A stretch of DNA of 64,000 nt from Sedimenticola thiotaurini. GTDB taxonomy: Bacteria; Pseudomonadota; Gammaproteobacteria; Chromatiales; Chromatiaceae. How positions within the stretch are numbered: position 1 is the stretch's first letter; every line of letters starts with the position of its first letter. Below, in pieces: positions 3,050 to 10,521 of this stretch. Both the position numbers and the translations under genes were made by a program. Where the stretch lies: contig VMRY01000003.1 of assembly GCA_007713595.1 (NCBI GenBank), positions 310,001 through 374,000 on the forward strand, read 5' to 3'. The notes below the pieces were generated by a model, which was not told the DNA's origin, did no database searches, and saw nothing but the letters and a program-made list of their open reading frames with translations.

Positions 3050-5170
3050 TTATGCCTGCAGTATGGAGATATCTGCCACACCTAAGAAGAGTGCACTTAG
3101 TTTGTTGAGCAACGCCAGTCGGTTGGACCTTACCGCAGGATCATCCGCCATGACCATTACCTGATCAAAAAACGCATCCACCGGTTCACGCAAGGTAGCC
3201 AGACTCTTCAATACCTGCTCATAGGCGTACAGATCCAGCAGCGGCGCGATCTCCTGCCACTTCTGATCAATCCCTGCGTAGAGAGCCTGTTCCTGCGGCG
3301 AATCGAACAAGCTGGTATCTATGTCAGACGCGATCGGTTGCTCACTCTTCTTCAGTATATTGCGTATACGTTTATTGGCTGCTGCCAGTGCTTCGGCCTC
3401 AGGCAGCGAGCGGAATGCAACAACGGCTTGAATCCGACGCTCAAAATCAGCGACAGACTCTGGTCTGGTTGCAGCTACCGCCTCAAACAGATCAACAGGG
3501 ATCTTGCGCTCAAGATAGATACCCTTGAGGCGTTCCAGCATAAAGCCATAGACTTGATCTACTGTATCGCTCTCCGTCAGGGTTTCAGCCAATTGCGCGG
3601 CTGCCGCCTGTAGTAACTGATTAAGATTTACCGGCAGATGGTGCTCCAGCATGATACGCAAGGCCCCCAGTGCGGCACGTCGAAGGGCAAAAGGATCCTT
3701 ATCGCCAGTGGGTTTCATGCCGATGCCAAAGATGCCCACCAGGGTATCCAGCCGCTCTGCCAATGACAGGGCCAGACCCGTACGGGTTTCTGGCAGCCTG
3801 TCGCCAGAGAAGCGGGGCATGTAAAATTCATCCAGGGCAGTTGCGACCTCAGCCGGTTCACTATCACGCTTTGCCAGGTAACGGCCCATAATCCCCTGCA
3901 TCTCGGGAAACTCCAGGACCATCTCTGACATCAGATCACAACGACTCAGCATGCCGGCTCTCTCGGCCTGGGCTTTGTCACCCTCTATCATCTCCGCAAT
4001 TTGAGAAGCCAGTGCGGCAACCCGCAGGCTCTTGTCATACATAGTGCCGAGTTTTTGCTGAAACAGGACGCTCTTTAATGAGTCGATGCGACTACTGAGT
4101 GTACGTTTACAGTCCTGCTGCCAGAAAAACATGGCATCGCTTAAGCGTGGTCGGACGACGCGCTCATTCCCCTCCTTAATCAGCTCGGGTTTGGGGCTGT
4201 CAATATTGGCAATAGTGATGAAGTGATTCATCAAGTGACCTTGGTGATCAACCAGATGGAAATATTTCTGGTTCTTCTTCATGGTGCTGATCAACGCCTC
4301 ATGGGGCACCTCCAGAAAGCGCGCCTCAAAACCTGCGGTGATGGGCACAGGCCACTCGACCAGACCGGTCACTTCATCAAGCAGTGCGCTGTCGATCTCT
4401 GCCTGCCCACCAATCGCCTCGGCACTCTGCTGCACCTGCTGGCGGATCTTATCCCGTCGGCTGTCGAAATCTGCAATGACATAACCTTGCTGTTGCAGCA
4501 CCTCAGCATACTTTTTGGGTTGCTCGATGCGGATGGCATCAGGGTGATGGAAGCGGTGCCCGTGGGTTTGATTACCTGCCTCTGTATCCAGAAGCTTACA
4601 AGGCACAATGGATTGACCCAGCATAAAGACCAGCCACTGCACCGGGCGAACAAACTGCGCTTCTGAACTACCCCAACGCATGCGCTTTGGTATGGGCAGG
4701 CGGTTTAAGGCCTCTTCTGCAATGGCAGGTAACAAGCTGGTGGCGGGCTTGCCCTGTTCGCTGATTTTATAGACCAGCCATTCACCCTTATCTGTTGTGA
4801 GCCGATCCAGTTGGTCAACCGTAGTACCACAGGATCGAGCAAAACCCTCGGCGGCTTTGGATGGGTTACCCTCTGCATCAAATGCCGCCTGGACCGCGGG
4901 CCCACGGCGTTCTATTTCACTGTCCGGCTGGGCTGTCTCACACCCCTCGATCAGTAACGCCAGACGCCTTGGTGTGGCATAGGCCGTCACTGCGCCATGC
5001 CGGAGTTTGGCCCGCTCAAGACCCTCGACAAAAGAGGCGGTAAAGGAGTCTGAAAGTCTCTTCAGTGCAACCGGTGGCAGCTCTTCGGTGCCGAGTTCAA
5101 ACAGCAAATCGGCAGACTGACTTGCGCCTTCCGGCCGTTCAATTTCATTCCCGAGGAAATTGTCAGCCAT
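3050..5170 (-). CDS. glyS: Glycyl-tRNA synthetase beta subunit
   Basis: A 706-residue beta chain of the alpha2-beta2 bacterial glycyl-tRNA synthetase, which handles tRNA recognition while GlyQ performs glycine activation. The hallmark N-terminal [12 protein letters not shown] is at about residues 22-33, and the protein ends in a tRNA-anticodon-binding (DALR-like) region. Length is slightly above the roughly 690 usual, owing to about 15 extra N-terminal residues. The ATG overlaps the glyQ 3' end by 8 bases, so glyQ-glyS are one operon. In a genome with this heterotetrameric type, a separate single-chain GlyRS is not expected. Confidence 0.97.
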
Positions 5171-6095
5171 GGGCCTGCTCCTTCTGATCTTTTAGCATGG
5201 GGAAGCCGAGCTTTTCTCTTGCATCATAATAGGCTTGAGCAACAGCACGGGCGAGGGTACGAACCCTCAGGATATAACGCTGACGCTCTGTCACAGAGAT
5301 GGCATGTCGTGCATCGAGCAGATTGAATGCGTGTGAGGCCTTCAATACCTGCTCATAGGCGGGCAGGGGAAGACCCAGCTCAATCAGTTTACTACTCTCC
5401 TTTTCGCACTGGTCGAAGAAGCTAAACAGAAATTCCACATCGGCGTGTTCAAAATTGTAGGTGGACTGTTCCACTTCGTTCTGATGAAACACATCGCCAT
5501 AGGTCACAGGACCGTCCGGCCCATGGGTCCAGATCAGATCAAACACACTCTCGACACTTTGCAGGTACATGGCAATACGCTCAAGACCATAGGTAATCTC
5601 GCCGGTAACCGGACGGCAGTCGATACCACCGACCTGTTGGAAATAGGTAAACTGGGTAACCTCCATGCCATTCAGCCACACCTCCCAGCCCAGTCCCCAG
5701 GCGCCCAGCGTAGGGGACTCCCAGTTATCTTCAACAAAGCGGATATCGTGCACCTTGCAATCCAGGCCCAACATCTCCAGCGAACCCAGATAGAGCTCCT
5801 GGATATTGAGCGGCGAAGGTTTCATGGCGACCTGAAACTGGTAATAGTGCTGTAATCGATTCGGATTTTCGCCATAGCGCCCATCCGTTGGACGGCGCGA
5901 TGGCTGAACATAGGCTGCATTCCAGGGCTCTGGTCCAATCGAGCGGAGGAAGGTGGCAGTATGAAACGTACCCGCGCCCATCTCCATGTCATAGGGCTGG
6001 AGAATGACGCAACCCTGATCCGCCCAGTACTGCTGCAGGGCAAATATCAGACCCTGAAAGGTAGAGGCGTCAGGGCTATTTTTAGACATTGTCAT
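5163..6095 (-). CDS. glyQ: Glycyl-tRNA synthetase alpha subunit
   Basis: A 310-residue class II aminoacyl-tRNA synthetase catalytic chain. It begins with the conserved [12 protein letters not shown] and the block [21 protein letters not shown], and contains the signature [17 protein letters not shown], all typical of GlyQ. Together with GlyS it charges tRNA-Gly in the cytoplasm. Two ATG codons (MTM) lie at the start; either is possible. The approximately 230-base gap to the divergent PP-loop gene must hold its promoter, but no clear -35/-10 pair could be assigned. Confidence 0.97.
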
Positions 6096-6329
6096 AGCTT
6101 AAGTTAAGACTCTATATATAAAAGGAAAAGTTAATCCCGCCAGTATATCGTCTTGGACAGAGATTGTTGAGTCTGTTACTCATTTAAAGCTGAGTTTAAC
6201 CCTGTGTGTGATGTGGACTGTGAGCAGGCAAAAAATAGTAATCTATTTCTATATTGAACAATTCTTTGAAGTGCAGTGAGTCAAACGCTTACAATAGCCC
6301 CCCGATACACCTCCAGATTTATTACCATC

Positions 6330-7373
6330 ATGACTAAACAACGCAAGGCCGTAGCCCTCATCTCCGGTGGTCTCGACTCATTATTAGCTGCCAAAGTGAT
6401 CCAGCAGCAGGGCGTGCATGTAGAGGGGATCAACTTTTTCACCGGGTTCTGTGTGGAGGGGCATACCCATGCCATTCGACAAAAAGATCGCGCCCGACCC
6501 AAACGCAATAATGCGCTGTGGGTGGCGGAGCAGTTGGGCATCAAGCTGCACATTGAGGATATTGTCGAGGAGTACAAGGATGTTGTGTTCAATCCGAAGC
6601 ATGGCTATGGGGCCAATTTAAACCCTTGCCTGGATTGTAAGATTTTCATGGTCAAAAAGGCCTTTCAGTGGATTGAGCAGCACGATTTTGATTTTATCAT
6701 CACCGGTGAGGTGGTCGGACAGCGACCCATGTCGCAGCGCAAGGATACGATGCCGGTGGTGGCGCGTGATTCTGGAGCAGAGGATCGACTGGTCAGGCCG
6801 CTCTCCGGACAGAATCTCCCTGCCACACTGCCCGAGCGTGAGGGCTGGATCTCCCGGGACAAGCTGTATGGATTCAATGGCCGCAGCCGCAAGCCCCAGA
6901 TGGCCCTGGCCAAGGAGTTTGGTCTGGAAGATTATGCCCAACCCGCCGGTGGCTGCTGTTTTCTGACGGATGCTCAATACTCGGTCAAACTGGCAGATCT
7001 CTGGAAGGCACGCGGTGAGAAGCAGTACGAGATGGATGACATCATGCTATTGAAGGTTGGACGGCATCTCAGACCGCAACCCCATTTTAAAGTGATTATC
7101 TCCCGGGAGGAGGGTGAAGGTAATTTCCTGCAGGGCTATCGCAAACTGTATGTTACGTTAAGCACGGTCAGTCATGCAGGGCCACTGGCCTTGATTGATG
7201 GGGCCGCCACCCCTGCCGATATTGAACTGGCCTGTCAATTGGTAGCCCGCTACAGTCAGGGTAAGTCTGCGGATCAGGTGGAGATGGATGTCAGGCAGCT
7301 GGATGGCACCCATCAGAAGATTTTTGTTAAACCGCTTTCCAGCGAGCAGATTCCACAGGCGTGGTACATATGA
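6330..7373 (+). CDS. MnmA/ThiI-like PP-loop ATPase, probable tRNA or carrier thiolation enzyme
   Basis: A 347-residue protein with an N-terminal PP-loop (SGGLDS, 12-17) that activates a substrate with ATP for sulfur insertion. Cysteines in NPCLDCK (C100, C103) and AGGCC (C209, C210) occupy places comparable to the catalytic cysteine pair of the tRNA 2-thiouridylase MnmA, so thiolation through a persulfide is a reasonable inference. The C-terminal third resembles the region often labelled DUF814/NFACT-R. Relatives carry the database name tRNA (5-methylaminomethyl-2-thiouridylate)-methyltransferase, which is probably a misnomer because no methyltransferase motif is visible. The ATG at 6330 starts 8 codons before the PP-loop strand; an in-frame GTG at 6276 is less likely. 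Its TGA overlaps the TusA-like ATG (ATGA). Confidence 0.8.
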   Translation: MTKQRKAVALISGGLDSLLAAKVIQQQGVHVEGINFFTGFCVEGHTHAIRQKDRARPKRNNALWVAEQLGIKLHIEDIVEEYKDVVFNPKHGYGANLNPCLDCKIFMVKKAFQWIEQHDFDFIITGEVVGQRPMSQRKDTMPVVARDSGAEDRLVRPLSGQNLPATLPEREGWISRDKLYGFNGRSRKPQMALAKEFGLEDYAQPAGGCCFLTDAQYSVKLADLWKARGEKQYEMDDIMLLKVGRHLRPQPHFKVIISREEGEGNFLQGYRKLYVTLSTVSHAGPLALIDGAATPADIELACQLVARYSQGKSADQVEMDVRQLDGTHQKIFVKPLSSEQIPQAWYI

Positions 7374-7603
7374 AGACCGTAATTGTTGATGCCCGGCGAC
7401 TGCTCTGCCCCATGCCGGTGATCCGGGTGCAGAATCAGGTCAGGGAACTGCCAGCGGGTACCCGGGTGGAAGCGGTCTGTACCGACCCTGGAGCACTGAA
7501 TGATATCCCGGCCTGGTGTAGAATCAACGGCCACAAACTGATTGAAACACGCACGGAAAATAACGAGTACATTATTGTGGTGGAAGTGGCCGGGGAAAAT
7601 TGA
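7370..7603 (+). CDS. TusA-family sulfur carrier protein
   Basis: A 77-residue SirA/TusA-fold protein. The defining CPxP motif is CPMP, directly after the first beta strand (VIVDARRLLCPMPVIR); its cysteine carries a persulfide. The start at 7370 overlaps the stop of the PP-loop gene by 4 bases and gives the usual short N terminus; the GTG three codons upstream is unlikely. The natural reading is that this carrier hands sulfur to the PP-loop enzyme encoded just before it. It differs from tusA of E. coli in context, so the general symbol is withheld. It is followed 5 bases later by a CDF transporter. Confidence 0.88.
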   Translation: MKTVIVDARRLLCPMPVIRVQNQVRELPAGTRVEAVCTDPGALNDIPAWCRINGHKLIETRTENNEYIIVVEVAGEN

Positions 7604-7608
7604 CAGCA

Positions 7609-8760
7609 ATGGATCAGCAGGTAGGTGAGAAGCAGCTGCGCTACAAGGCGATTCAACGCGTCACCGTTGTAGGTGTCGTCGTCAATTTGGTTCTGGCAGT
7701 CAGCAAGACCACCATTGGTTTTCTTGCCCAGTCACAATCACTGGTTGCGGATGGCATCCATTCACTCTCCGATCTGTTATCCGATGCCCTGGTTTTTTTT
7801 GCCGCCAGACATGCCCATCATGGCCCGGATGAAGCCCACCCATATGGCCATGGACGGTTTGAAACGGCCGGCACCTTGGGCCTGGGACTGCTGCTGGCAT
7901 TAGTCGCTATCGGCATCACCTGGGATGCGGTGGAACGCCTTTTCTCACCGGATGCCCTGCTACACCCCAAACCGATCGCCCTTTACGCCGCGGCGTTCTC
8001 CATTGTTGCCAATGAGTGGCTCTACCACTACACCGCAAGGGTAGCGCGACGCATCAAGTCGGATCTGTTGCAGGCCAATGCCTGGCATCATCGCTCCGAT
8101 GCGCTCTCTTCTATTGTTGTGCTGGTGGGTGTCGCTGGTACCATGGCAGGTCTGCCTTACCTGGATGCAATTGCGGCCATCGGGGTAGGTTTAATGATTG
8201 CCCGTATCGGCTGGGACTTGAGCTGGCCGGCCTTTCAGGAGCTGGTGGATGAGGGCCTGGATGAGGATCGACTGGATAGAATCCGGGAGATTATTGGCCA
8301 GATTGGTGGTGTACAGGATATTCATATGCTACGCACTCGGCGTATTGGTGGCGAAGCGACGGTTGATGTGCATATCCTGGTGGAGCCGTGGCTAAGTGTT
8401 TCGGAAGGCCACATGATTGGCCAGACGGTGATCGACCGGTTGCTGGAAGAGGTTTATGAGGTGATGGATGTTACCGTCCATATTGATCCTGAAGATGATG
8501 AGATTGCCATTCCTTGCAAAGGGTTGCCTCTGCGCGCTGCAGCAGAGAAGCTACTGGATCAGCAGTGGGCTGATATCCCGGGCGCCAATCGCCGTCAGCG
8601 GGTTGTGTTGCACTACCTGGAAGGGCAGATTGATGTGGATGTCTATTTCCCTCTGAGTGAGCTGGAGGAGAGCGAAGCCGATCAGTCCTTTCAGCAAGCC
8701 CTGGATGAACAGGCGCGTCTGTTACCCGAGTTCAGATCAGTCAGGGTATTTTATGGCTAG
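7609..8760 (+). CDS. Cation diffusion facilitator (CDF) family metal transporter
   Basis: A 383-residue CDF/ZnT protein with about six membrane segments and a soluble C-terminal domain. Metal-site residues of the family are visible: ADGIHSLSDLLSD in the second segment, and HHRSD in the fifth. A His-rich loop (HAHHGPDEAHPYGHGRFE) lies between segments 2 and 3. The extended cytoplasmic tail, with two ferredoxin-like parts, is longer than in the shortest CDFs (about 300 residues). The expected role is export of Zn2+, Fe2+ or a similar ion in exchange for protons. A TTG at 7600 would overlap the TusA stop; the ATG at 7609 is preferred. Its metal cannot be assigned from sequence. Confidence 0.9.
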   Translation: MDQQVGEKQLRYKAIQRVTVVGVVVNLVLAVSKTTIGFLAQSQSLVADGIHSLSDLLSDALVFFAARHAHHGPDEAHPYGHGRFETAGTLGLGLLLALVAIGITWDAVERLFSPDALLHPKPIALYAAAFSIVANEWLYHYTARVARRIKSDLLQANAWHHRSDALSSIVVLVGVAGTMAGLPYLDAIAAIGVGLMIARIGWDLSWPAFQELVDEGLDEDRLDRIREIIGQIGGVQDIHMLRTRRIGGEATVDVHILVEPWLSVSEGHMIGQTVIDRLLEEVYEVMDVTVHIDPEDDEIAIPCKGLPLRAAAEKLLDQQWADIPGANRRQRVVLHYLEGQIDVDVYFPLSELEESEADQSFQQALDEQARLLPEFRSVRVFYG

Positions 8761-8762
8761 AC

Positions 8763-8777
8763 GCACCATTACCGTGC
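8763..8777. promoter_or_regulatory. NtrC-binding site (distal) upstream of glnA
   Basis: GCACCATTACCGTGC fits the NtrC dyad GCAC-N7-GTGC in both half-sites. It starts 2 bases after the CDF stop codon and is centred about 240 bases upstream of the predicted sigma-54 start. The next box is 31 bases away, three helical turns, so NtrC dimers on both boxes face the same side of the helix. Confidence 0.75.
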
Positions 8778-8793
8778 ATGACGGCCTTTATGC

Positions 8794-8808
8794 GCACCAA
8801 AACGATGC
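8794..8808. promoter_or_regulatory. NtrC-binding site (proximal) upstream of glnA
   Basis: GCACCAAAACGATGC matches GCAC-N7-GTGC with one mismatch. With the box at 8763-8777 it forms a tandem enhancer of the kind seen at E. coli glnA, where two strong boxes lie 32 bases apart. Confidence 0.7.
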
Positions 8809-8983
8809 ATATGCAGTTTTCATGGCTATTTATAGATATACCATTCTCTCTTGTTGTGGCCACTTTTCTCTCCACCCTGGGGCCCGCTAATTACTTGTAA
8901 TTATTTCTGTTTCCAGAGACGGGTTAAATCGTAGTAAAATCATCTGCTCGGTCATGGAGGGGAGTTTTTTGGTCCCATGGTCG

Positions 8984-9000
8984 TGGCACAGTACTTGCTA
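8984..9000 (+). promoter_or_regulatory. Sigma-54 promoter of glnA
   Basis: TGGCACAGTACTTGCTA matches the sigma-54 consensus TGGCAC-N5-TTGCW exactly, with GG at 8985-8986 (-24) and GC at 8997-8998 (-12). Transcription should start near 9010, leaving an untranslated leader of about 105 bases. That leader holds a small TGCCC/GGGCA hairpin (9022-9037) and the palindrome TGTGGCCACA (9063-9072), whose roles are unknown. The stretch 8761-9114 contains no gene; it is the glnA control region. Confidence 0.93.
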
Positions 9001-9114
9001 ATTCTACGGGCATGCTTTGACTGCCCTAAAGTGGGCATCTCAAAACTTACTAATTTTTTAGTGTGTGGCCACAGTGTGGTCCAAACAATTTAATACTAAC
9101 TGCTGGAGAACCTC

Positions 9115-10521
9115 ATGGCCTCAAAAGTCCTGAAGATGATCAAAGACAACGAAGTGAAGTTCGTCGATTTCCGCTTCACCGATACCCGTGGTAAAGAGCA
9201 ACACGTTTCTGTTCCTGCTCACACTATCGATGAAGATCTCTTCACCGACGGTAAGATGTTCGATGGTTCTTCCATCGCAGGTTGGAAGGGTATTAATGAA
9301 TCTGACATGATCCTGATGCCGGATGCGTCGAGTGCTGTGCTGGATCTGTTCTCGGATGAGGTGACCCTCAACATCACCTGCGATATCCTGGAGCCCTCCA
9401 CAATGGAAGGCTATGAGCGTGATCCACGCTCTGTCGCGCGTCGTGCAGAAGCTTATCTGCAGTCTACCGGTATTGCTGATTCTGCTTTCTTTGGTCCAGA
9501 GCCTGAATTCTTCATCCTGGATGATATCCGTTGGGGAGCCGACATGAGCGGTGCCTTCTACAAGATTGATTCGGAAGAGGCTGGCTGGAACTCTGAGCGC
9601 GTTTACAATGACGGCAACATCGGTCATCGTCCTGGCACCAAAGGCGGCTATTTCCCCGTACCTCCAGTTGACTCACTGAACGATATCCGTGCCGCCATGT
9701 GTCTGGCGATGGAAGAGATGGGTGTTCCTGTTGAGGTTCATCACCACGAGGTTGCTACCGCAGGTCAGTGTGAGATCGGCACCAAGTTCAGTACCTTGGT
9801 AGAGCGTGCTGACTGGGTTCAGATCCAGAAGTATGTCACCTGGAACGTCGCACATGCCTATGGCAAGACCGCTACCTTTATGCCGAAACCACTGGTAGGT
9901 GACAACGGCTCTGGTATGCACGTGCATATGTCGCTGGCCAAAAATGGCGAGAACCTGTTTGCCGGTAACCTGTATGGTGGTCTGTCTGAGACAGCCCTCT
10001 ACTACATCGGTGGTGTCATCAAGCATGCCCGTGCCCTGAATGCCTTCACCAACCCTTCAACCAACTCCTACAAGCGTCTGGTCCCCGGATTCGAAGCCCC
10101 TGTTATGCTGGCTTACTCAGCCCGTAACCGTTCTGCCTCCATCCGTATCCCATTTGTCAGCAGCCCCAAGGGTCGCCGTGTTGAGGTTCGTTTCCCGGAT
10201 CCTACCGCTAACCCCTACCTGGCCTTCGCTGCATTGATGATGGCTGGTCTGGACGGTATTCAGAACAAGATCCACCCCGGCGAGGCGATGGATAAAGATC
10301 TGTATGATCTGCCAGCTGAAGAGGCCCTCGCTATCCCGACCGTTTGCCACAGCCTGGATCAGGCGCTTGAGGCACTGGATGCAGATCGTGAATTCCTCAC
10401 CGCTGGCGGTGTATTCACCGATGATCTGATTGATGCCTTCATCGCCCTGAAAATGGAAGATGTGACACGTATCCGTATGACCACCCACCCGGTCGAGTTT
10501 GATATGTACTACAGCTTGTAA
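9115..10521 (+). CDS. glnA: Glutamine synthetase, type I
   Basis: A 468-residue GS-I (E. coli 469) that makes glutamine from glutamate, ammonia and ATP as a cytoplasmic dodecamer. Visible motifs are FDGSS near residue 50, the metal-binding GPEPEFFI, the ATP site [14 protein letters not shown] and the glutamate-binding NRSASIRIP. The adenylylation loop is [10 protein letters not shown], with the tyrosine equivalent to E. coli Tyr397, so control by GlnE is expected. GGAG lies 10 bases before the ATG. Expression is controlled by the sigma-54 promoter and NtrC boxes upstream; the regulators ntrB-ntrC are two genes downstream. A strong terminator separates it from the next gene. Confidence 0.99.

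Follow-up and report, generated by a model that had tools for sequence, protein, structure and literature searches.

The stretch analysed here, hereafter the window, comprises 64,000 nucleotides of contig VMRY01000003.1 from a Sedimenticola-like gammaproteobacterium. Three plus-strand genes, encoding a PP-loop protein, a TusA-like protein and a CDF-family transporter, sit in it between the divergent genes glyQ and glnA. The original prediction had described them as one tightly packed operon, and the coordinates agree: the TGA of the PP-loop gene (7371-7373) and the ATG of the TusA-like gene (7370-7372) overlap by four bases (ATGA), and after a spacer of five bases (7604-7608) the CDF gene starts with an ATG at 7609 and stops at 8758-8760. 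The PP-loop protein shares 91% identity with its counterpart in S. selenatireducens BK-1, which is classed in the Sedimenticolaceae. We propose the first two genes as a candidate synthase of 4-thiouridine (s4U) in tRNA, and regard the third as a probable bystander. The features are the following.

6330-7373, plus strand: PP-loop ATPase/NFACT-R fusion, 347 amino acids, candidate tRNA 4-thiouridine synthase
6363-6380, plus strand: PP-loop motif SGGLDS, the ATP site, residues 12-17, from alignment
6450-6452, plus strand: C41 in the FCVEGHTH motif, from alignment
6627-6638, plus strand: C100-x2-C103 (NPCLDC), kept in all members examined, including two Fusobacteriota relatives
6954-6959, plus strand: C209-C210 (GGCCFLTD), C210 aligning with the MnmA catalytic cysteine
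7059-7367, plus strand: NFACT-R_2 RNA-binding domain, residues 244-346, 116.5 bits
7370-7603, plus strand: TusA-like sulfur carrier, 77 amino acids, CPMP motif with C13
7609-8760, plus strand: CDF-family cation exporter (Cation_efflux and ZT_dimer domains) with an HD-HD metal site, a neighbour probably outside the thiolation unit
5163-6095, minus strand: glyQ, flanking the three-gene group
9115-10521, plus strand: glnA, flanking the three-gene group

The PP-loop/NFACT-R protein and its cysteines

Pfam matches of the ThiI type and of the tRNA_Me_trans type lie within residues 4-160 of the PP-loop protein. The earlier reading of a PP-loop enzyme was thus correct as far as it went, but it had overlooked the C-terminal RNA-binding domain, NFACT-R_2 (PF18297), which scores well above its cut-off of 26.9 bits. 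The curated cut-offs rule out that the protein is a ThiI or an MnmA. It reaches 42.6 bits against the 264.5 required for ThiI (TIGR00342), and 45.3 and 47 bits against the 236.95 and 284 required by the MnmA models TIGR00420 and NF001138, on which the real MnmA of the same genome scores 457.5 and 467.3 bits. The Pfam scan found no rhodanese domain, and no match to a THUMP domain at E 0.001.

An AlphaFold model of the protein was built from 42 sequences and has a mean pLDDT of 86.3. Its top matches in the Protein Data Bank (PDB) by VIA-align are ThiI structures (4kr6, Z 15.3, root-mean-square deviation 2.5 over 165 residues; 2c5s, Z 15.2). YcfA is tied with them at Z 15.0, followed by LarE at Z 14.1-14.3, including the [4Fe-4S] LarE, and by MnmA at 13.1. 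Over its C-terminal part, the model resembles the NFACT-R portion of RqcH (8s1u, Z 14.3, 101 residues). As modelled, the fold is that of a PP-loop thiolase joined to an NFACT-R domain. In public annotation, relatives of the protein are named as MnmA/TRMU family or as 7-cyano-7-deazaguanine synthase (relatives L258 and L259), and are likely misnamed.

The cysteines were aligned in 169 full-length proteins from 170 loci, with one fragment dropped and some genomes counted twice. C41, C100, C103 and C210 are each present in all 169 proteins and C209 in 168; in the SGGLDS motif, S12, G13, G14, D16 and S17 are present in all 169 and L15 in 168. Compared with ten MnmA sequences, C103 falls on the cysteine of NPDxxC, C100 on the aspartate of DxxC, and C210, not C209, on the cysteine of GIC, in a global profile alignment whose C-terminal part is forced (the local version ended at residue 126). 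The original prediction had placed both C100/C103 and C209/C210 at sites comparable to the MnmA cysteines and had named C100 and C209 as the residues whose conservation should be checked. The positions are right and the comparison stands for C103 and C210. C209, however, is neither the partner of the GIC cysteine nor invariant, the conserved partner being C210, and C100, although invariant among the proteins examined, corresponds to an aspartate.

A 2024 review gives Asp99, Cys102 and Cys199 of Escherichia coli MnmA as catalytic residues or as proposed ligands of a disputed cluster, and splits MnmA into C-DxxC-C and CC-CxxC-C groups (PMC11784392). Judged by its sequence, the PP-loop/NFACT-R family is of the CxxC type. 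The protein thus shares with MnmA the PP-loop, cysteines at matching places and the top of the Foldseek ranking, but differs in its scores, which fall below the cut-offs, and in having CxxC where the MnmA of its own genome has DxxC. A CxxC plus a further conserved cysteine, as in the [4Fe-4S]-dependent PP-loop thiolases, is present as C100, C103 and C210 in 169 of 169 proteins, and these three are also kept in two Fusobacteriota relatives. This three-cysteine pattern, which holds a cluster in known enzymes, is common to TtcA, TtuA and the [4Fe-4S] LarE. Unlike these enzymes, the PP-loop protein has an NFACT-R domain and a dedicated TusA, and its putative cluster is read from the cysteine pattern.

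Besides the form with C41 and the C209-C210 pair, a single-cysteine form occurs in the Fusobacteriota relatives L258 and L259 (35-37% identity) and in the gammaproteobacterial L052, L260, L261, L263 and L264. All seven retain CxDC, have one cysteine at 209/210 and miss the FCVEGHTH motif, although L052 has a cysteine aligned with C41. No TusA was found beside any of the seven within the sequence read; for L264 this reached only about 0.4 kb downstream. The members with C41 and the cysteine pair mostly have an adjacent TusA. Because several of them have none within the stretch read (L048, L051, L062, L064, L163, L219, L262 and L266, although the genome of L219, G008, has TusA elsewhere), we treat the correlation of cysteine form with TusA as a lead suggested by the alignment and not as a rule.

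The TusA-like partner and the CDF neighbour

The TusA-like protein belongs to the TusA family (PF01206, 75.4 bits, cut-off 28.6) and carries the CPxP motif. C13, P14 and P16 are conserved in at least 97% of 72 sequences, and C13 in all of them. It falls below the cut-off of the TusA equivalog NF001423 (53.8 against 78 bits).

Gene neighbourhoods show that the three-gene arrangement is more than accidental and is not confined to the window's genome. Among the best 80 named gammaproteobacterial records of a capped list, 69 had more than 1.7 kb downstream of the PP-loop gene and could be evaluated. TusA follows in 65 of these and CDF in 59, and both follow in, among others, Sedimenticola, Thiodiazotropha, Thiohalobacter, Methylobacter and Cycloclasticus, while in Methylomonas (L094, L095) TusA is present without CDF. 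Methylobacter tundripaludum SV96 (L139) is one organism with the triad. Of 30 loci from the window's own family, 27 have TusA and 25 have CDF downstream. The corresponding numbers are 26 and 18 for 30 loci of the class, and 25 and 6, within about 1.5 kb, for 30 loci of the phylum, one of which is the window's own.

Occurrence across genomes separates TusA from CDF further. The PP-loop gene was found in 35 of the 57 own-family genomes, and the search for TusA covered 30 of these 35 as well as all 22 PP-negative genomes. A TusA of the operon type (at least 53% identity) was present in 30 of 30 PP-positive and in none of the 22 PP-negative genomes, whose best matches did not exceed 31%. In three PP-positive genomes (G008, G041, G042) the PP-loop gene lies apart from TusA-CDF, and TusA is still kept. 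With the conserved cysteines at MnmA-like places, these counts support the dedicated PP-loop/TusA sulfur-transfer pair that had been proposed for this locus. In one genome from outside the class, the gene immediately upstream of PP-TusA is hemB (ALAD; L202:3206-4291), and a related open reading frame occupies this place in other such loci. Because of this different flank, PP-TusA appears to travel as a unit; on the sequence evidence, the pair is the part that moves. The same genome has other TusA-like proteins, one with a rhodanese-like gene on one side and a DsrE2-like gene on the other (L199:3447-4673), and one by a YeeE-like membrane protein (L201:495-851), with the neighbours named by eye.

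The third protein is a CDF transporter (TIGR01297, 244.7 bits, cut-off 82.35), but at 144.4 bits it stays far below the 420 of the FieF equivalog NF050169. It shares the Cation_efflux and ZT_dimer domains with FieF and other CDF exporters. It differs from FieF by its site A, which is HD-HD in place of DD-HD (H54, D58, H163 and D167, numbered from the TTG at 7600), with a histidine replacing FieF's first aspartate, and by about 85 extra C-terminal residues. An HD-HD site A suits zinc. The C-terminal residues, past ZT_dimer (window 8500-8757), contain a conserved H338-Y339 and have no Pfam match.

A CDF ortholog was found in 31 of 35 PP-positive and 14 of 22 PP-negative own-family genomes (p 0.04, with the broken pieces in G013 counted as absent), an association that looks weak compared with the one between TusA and the PP-loop gene. 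Apart from its position, this weak association is all that connects the transporter with thiolation. No TusA was found at any of 16 CDF loci from 15 genomes without the PP-loop gene, and glnA still adjoins CDF in 14 of these 15 genomes. We therefore rejected the transporter as a thiolation component: its ortholog is kept in 14 of 22 genomes that have no PP-loop gene, usually beside glnA and without TusA. The single system including a metal exporter, as originally suggested, is not supported for the same reason, since CDF stays at the glyQ/glnA site without PP and TusA, and the operon-type TusA occurs only where PP is. Because TusA tracks PP while CDF remains at glnA, we consider PP-TusA as the pair and CDF as a resident of the site, most likely a mere neighbour at a shared chromosomal position.

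Other readings of the locus were discarded. A metal-sensing RNA upstream was rejected on zero Rfam matches at E 1 in 5900-9200, and a defence system on zero PADLOC matches. A phage or plasmid gene was rejected as well, the searches giving one weak partial phage match and three plasmid-collection records, all from Fusobacteriota at about 36%.

Distribution relative to ThiI and RudS

The occurrence of the PP-loop gene was compared with that of ThiI in three genome sets, covering the own family (n=57), the class (n=274, spread over families) and the phylum (n=299). The two genes avoid each other. In the phylum set, the PP-loop gene is present in 46 genomes, ThiI in 108 and both in none of the 299, where 16.6 would be expected. 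In the class set, 138 genomes have the PP-loop gene, 21 have ThiI (19 over the cut-off and two just below) and only one has both, against 10.6 expected (p 5e-6). The PP/NFACT-R gene of this one genome, G563 (L264), is of the single-cysteine form. ThiI over the cut-off was found in none of the 57 own-family genomes, including the window's. All 60 loci fetched from the phylum and class sets, one being a fragment, were confirmed as the PP-loop gene; among the 138 class genomes, the gene is a fragment with a stop in G381 and split in G441.

A second line of evidence comes from RudS, a fusion of TudS with a C-terminal DUF1722 domain that reportedly erases s4U from tRNA. The RudS authors describe genomes that have RudS but no ThiI, for which they propose a ThiI of other architecture or the absence of s4U (PMC11417400). 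Among ThiI-less genomes of the class set, DUF1722 is present in 62 of 137 with the PP-loop gene and in 1 of 116 without it (p 3e-19), and 73 of the 74 DUF1722 carriers of this set have either the PP-loop gene or ThiI. The ThiI-less phylum genomes behave similarly (19 of 46 versus 4 of 145), as does the own family, with 16 of 35 PP-positive versus 2 of 22 PP-negative genomes, or 14 and 1 when only matches of 1e-30 or better are counted. These numbers, like those for PF18297, are domain counts, and some DUF1722 matches are weak and partial. All seven DUF1722 proteins scanned were TudS-DUF1722 fusions; these seven are a sample, as the family, phylum and class sets contain 18, 78 and 74 carriers. 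The link is not an effect of genome size in the own family, because PP-positive genomes are the smaller ones (median 3.1 versus 4.15 Mb).

Pairs of genomes within families, taken by eye from the listed class genomes (12 genomes fall outside one listing), show the PP-loop gene and DUF1722 changing together in five families (f109, f113, f179, f198 and f207; one-sided sign test 0.03), whereas in f141 DUF1722 is absent in both. The avoidance of ThiI and the DUF1722 link, both drawn from gene content, together favour s4U as the product of the TusA-linked form. The window's genome encodes a full RudS (L154:916-1881, G000:C22), though it has no ThiI over the cut-off.

A candidate replacement of ThiI

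We propose, with a probability of roughly three in four, that the PP-loop protein, with TusA as its dedicated sulfur carrier, is an s4U synthase used in place of ThiI. For its substrate, s4U at position 8, and for its chemistry we infer the following scheme. The PP-loop protein would be a non-orthologous replacement of ThiI, whose PP-loop domain would adenylate U8 of the tRNA using ATP, while the C-terminal NFACT-R domain, in place of THUMP, is predicted to hold the tRNA. The TusA-like protein would deliver persulfide sulfur from a cysteine desulfurase. The site formed by the CxxC (C100/C103) and C210, probably with a [4Fe-4S] cluster, would then pass the sulfur to the activated base, yielding 4-thiouridine. 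The CDF transporter would remain outside the machinery, as a neighbour at the same chromosomal site. Such an enzyme would share with ThiI the PP-loop ATPase core, the nearest fold by VIA-align Z and the proposed product. It would differ by receiving sulfur via a separate TusA, and does differ in having neither a detected THUMP nor a detected rhodanese domain, and in its ThiI score (42.6 versus 264.5 bits).

Several observations weigh against this proposal. The fold, as modelled, does not decide the substrate, because Foldseek E-values rank MnmA first (2hma, E 3.6e-8) and ThiI (2c5s) third. The binding of tRNA at U8 is putative, and the Fe-S assignment depends on the cysteine pattern and the forced profile alignment. 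The genomes behind the co-occurrence counts share ancestry: on a tree of CDF from 44 own-family genomes, three changes suffice for the PP label, and 13 of the 15 PP-negative genomes form one clade. Because the genomes are related in this way, the association with TusA reflects few independent events, not 52. Neither the PP-loop gene nor ThiI is present in 116 of the 274 class genomes, so that s4U must be dispensable there or otherwise made. DUF1722 also occurs in genomes with neither gene, namely G553 in the class, G189, G205, G257 and G310 in the phylum, and in the own family G002, with a full RudS (L151:1471-2442), and G052, with a weak match. Either G002 has a further s4U maker, or RudS is kept there without s4U. 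In f152, DUF1722 is unchanged, being present in both genomes. Finally, the class set has five PP genomes of the single-cysteine form, among which DUF1722 is present only in the ThiI-bearing G563. Since the ThiI-less ones have none, the RudS link appears confined to the TusA-linked form.

The PP-loop enzyme could instead thiolate another RNA position or another RNA, for example 2-thiocytidine 32 (s2C32), a second 2-thiouridine (s2U) or rRNA, with TusA as donor. PP-loop thiolases with differing substrates share their fold, the Foldseek ranking and the aligned cysteines both lead to MnmA, and the NFACT-R of RqcH is located at the ribosome (PMC8012679). We nevertheless find this unlikely, as the window's genome has a separate MnmA gene, and ThiI avoidance and the DUF1722 link point to s4U, on which RudS is reported to act in tRNA (PMC11417400). 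Another conceivable product is a thiolated small molecule or cofactor, in the manner of LarE or YcfA. The structures of these two are close (Z 14 to 15), but the fusion to an RNA-binding NFACT-R domain, the broad occurrence (138 of 274 class genomes) and the co-occurrence with DUF1722 make it very improbable.

It could also be that all three genes are one system, in which CDF shields the thiol chemistry from zinc or keeps the metal balance. This would agree with the HD-HD site that replaces the DD-HD of FieF, with the triad in 59 of 69 evaluable named, 25 of 30 family and 18 of 30 class loci, with the five phylum-set loci outside the class in which CDF adjoins PP-TusA, and with the more frequent CDF ortholog in genomes with the PP-loop gene (31 of 35 versus 14 of 22, p 0.04). 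Adjacency in the Gammaproteobacteria, however, can be inherited as part of a glyQ-glnA region that is itself conserved. The ortholog's retention in PP-negative genomes, at loci without TusA and beside glnA, makes a common system about as doubtful as the thiolation of another RNA.

Returning to the s4U synthase, a more specific version can be put forward tentatively, at somewhat less than even odds. The pair may constitute a second, independently built s4U route, in which a [4Fe-4S]-type PP-loop/NFACT-R synthase is fed directly by its own TusA, C41 (in FCVEGHTH) and C209 serve as the TusA docking and persulfide-acceptor site, and the enzyme stands in for ThiI in about half of the family-spread gammaproteobacterial sample (138 of 274) and in other classes of the phylum.

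The central idea has a precedent. Burroughs and Aravind reportedly predicted in 2014 (RNA Biol 11:360) that an RNA-binding domain outside NEMF-type proteins takes part, together with TusA-like proteins, in a new route of tRNA 4-thiouridylation. The two proposals agree in an NFACT-R outside NEMF/RqcH-type proteins, a TusA-like partner and 4-thiouridine as the predicted product. Theirs is said to build on domains and neighbourhoods, whereas the present analysis adds that the PP-loop gene avoids ThiI and is linked to DUF1722, that CDF is separable and that there are two cysteine forms. The phyletic tests, the CDF separation and the cysteine forms appear new within the literature searched. A search for a tested alternative s4U synthase, or for biochemical proof of one, found none, with most subscription papers outside its coverage.

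At tRNA position 8, s4U serves in near-UV sensing and marks tRNA quality, and its synthesis is usually ascribed to ThiI. With ThiI in 21 and the PP-loop gene in 138 of the 274 class genomes, the s4U maker may be unnamed in many gammaproteobacterial lineages, although the share of the PP-loop gene varies with the sample (just four genomes of the window's class carry it in the phylum set). Annotation is also affected, as PP-loop relatives are labelled MnmA/TRMU or 7-cyano-7-deazaguanine synthase. For some of the ThiI-less RudS genomes, the PP-loop gene is a concrete candidate for the enzyme that the RudS authors left open (PMC11417400). If the proposal is true, an independent s4U route would account for part of these genomes.

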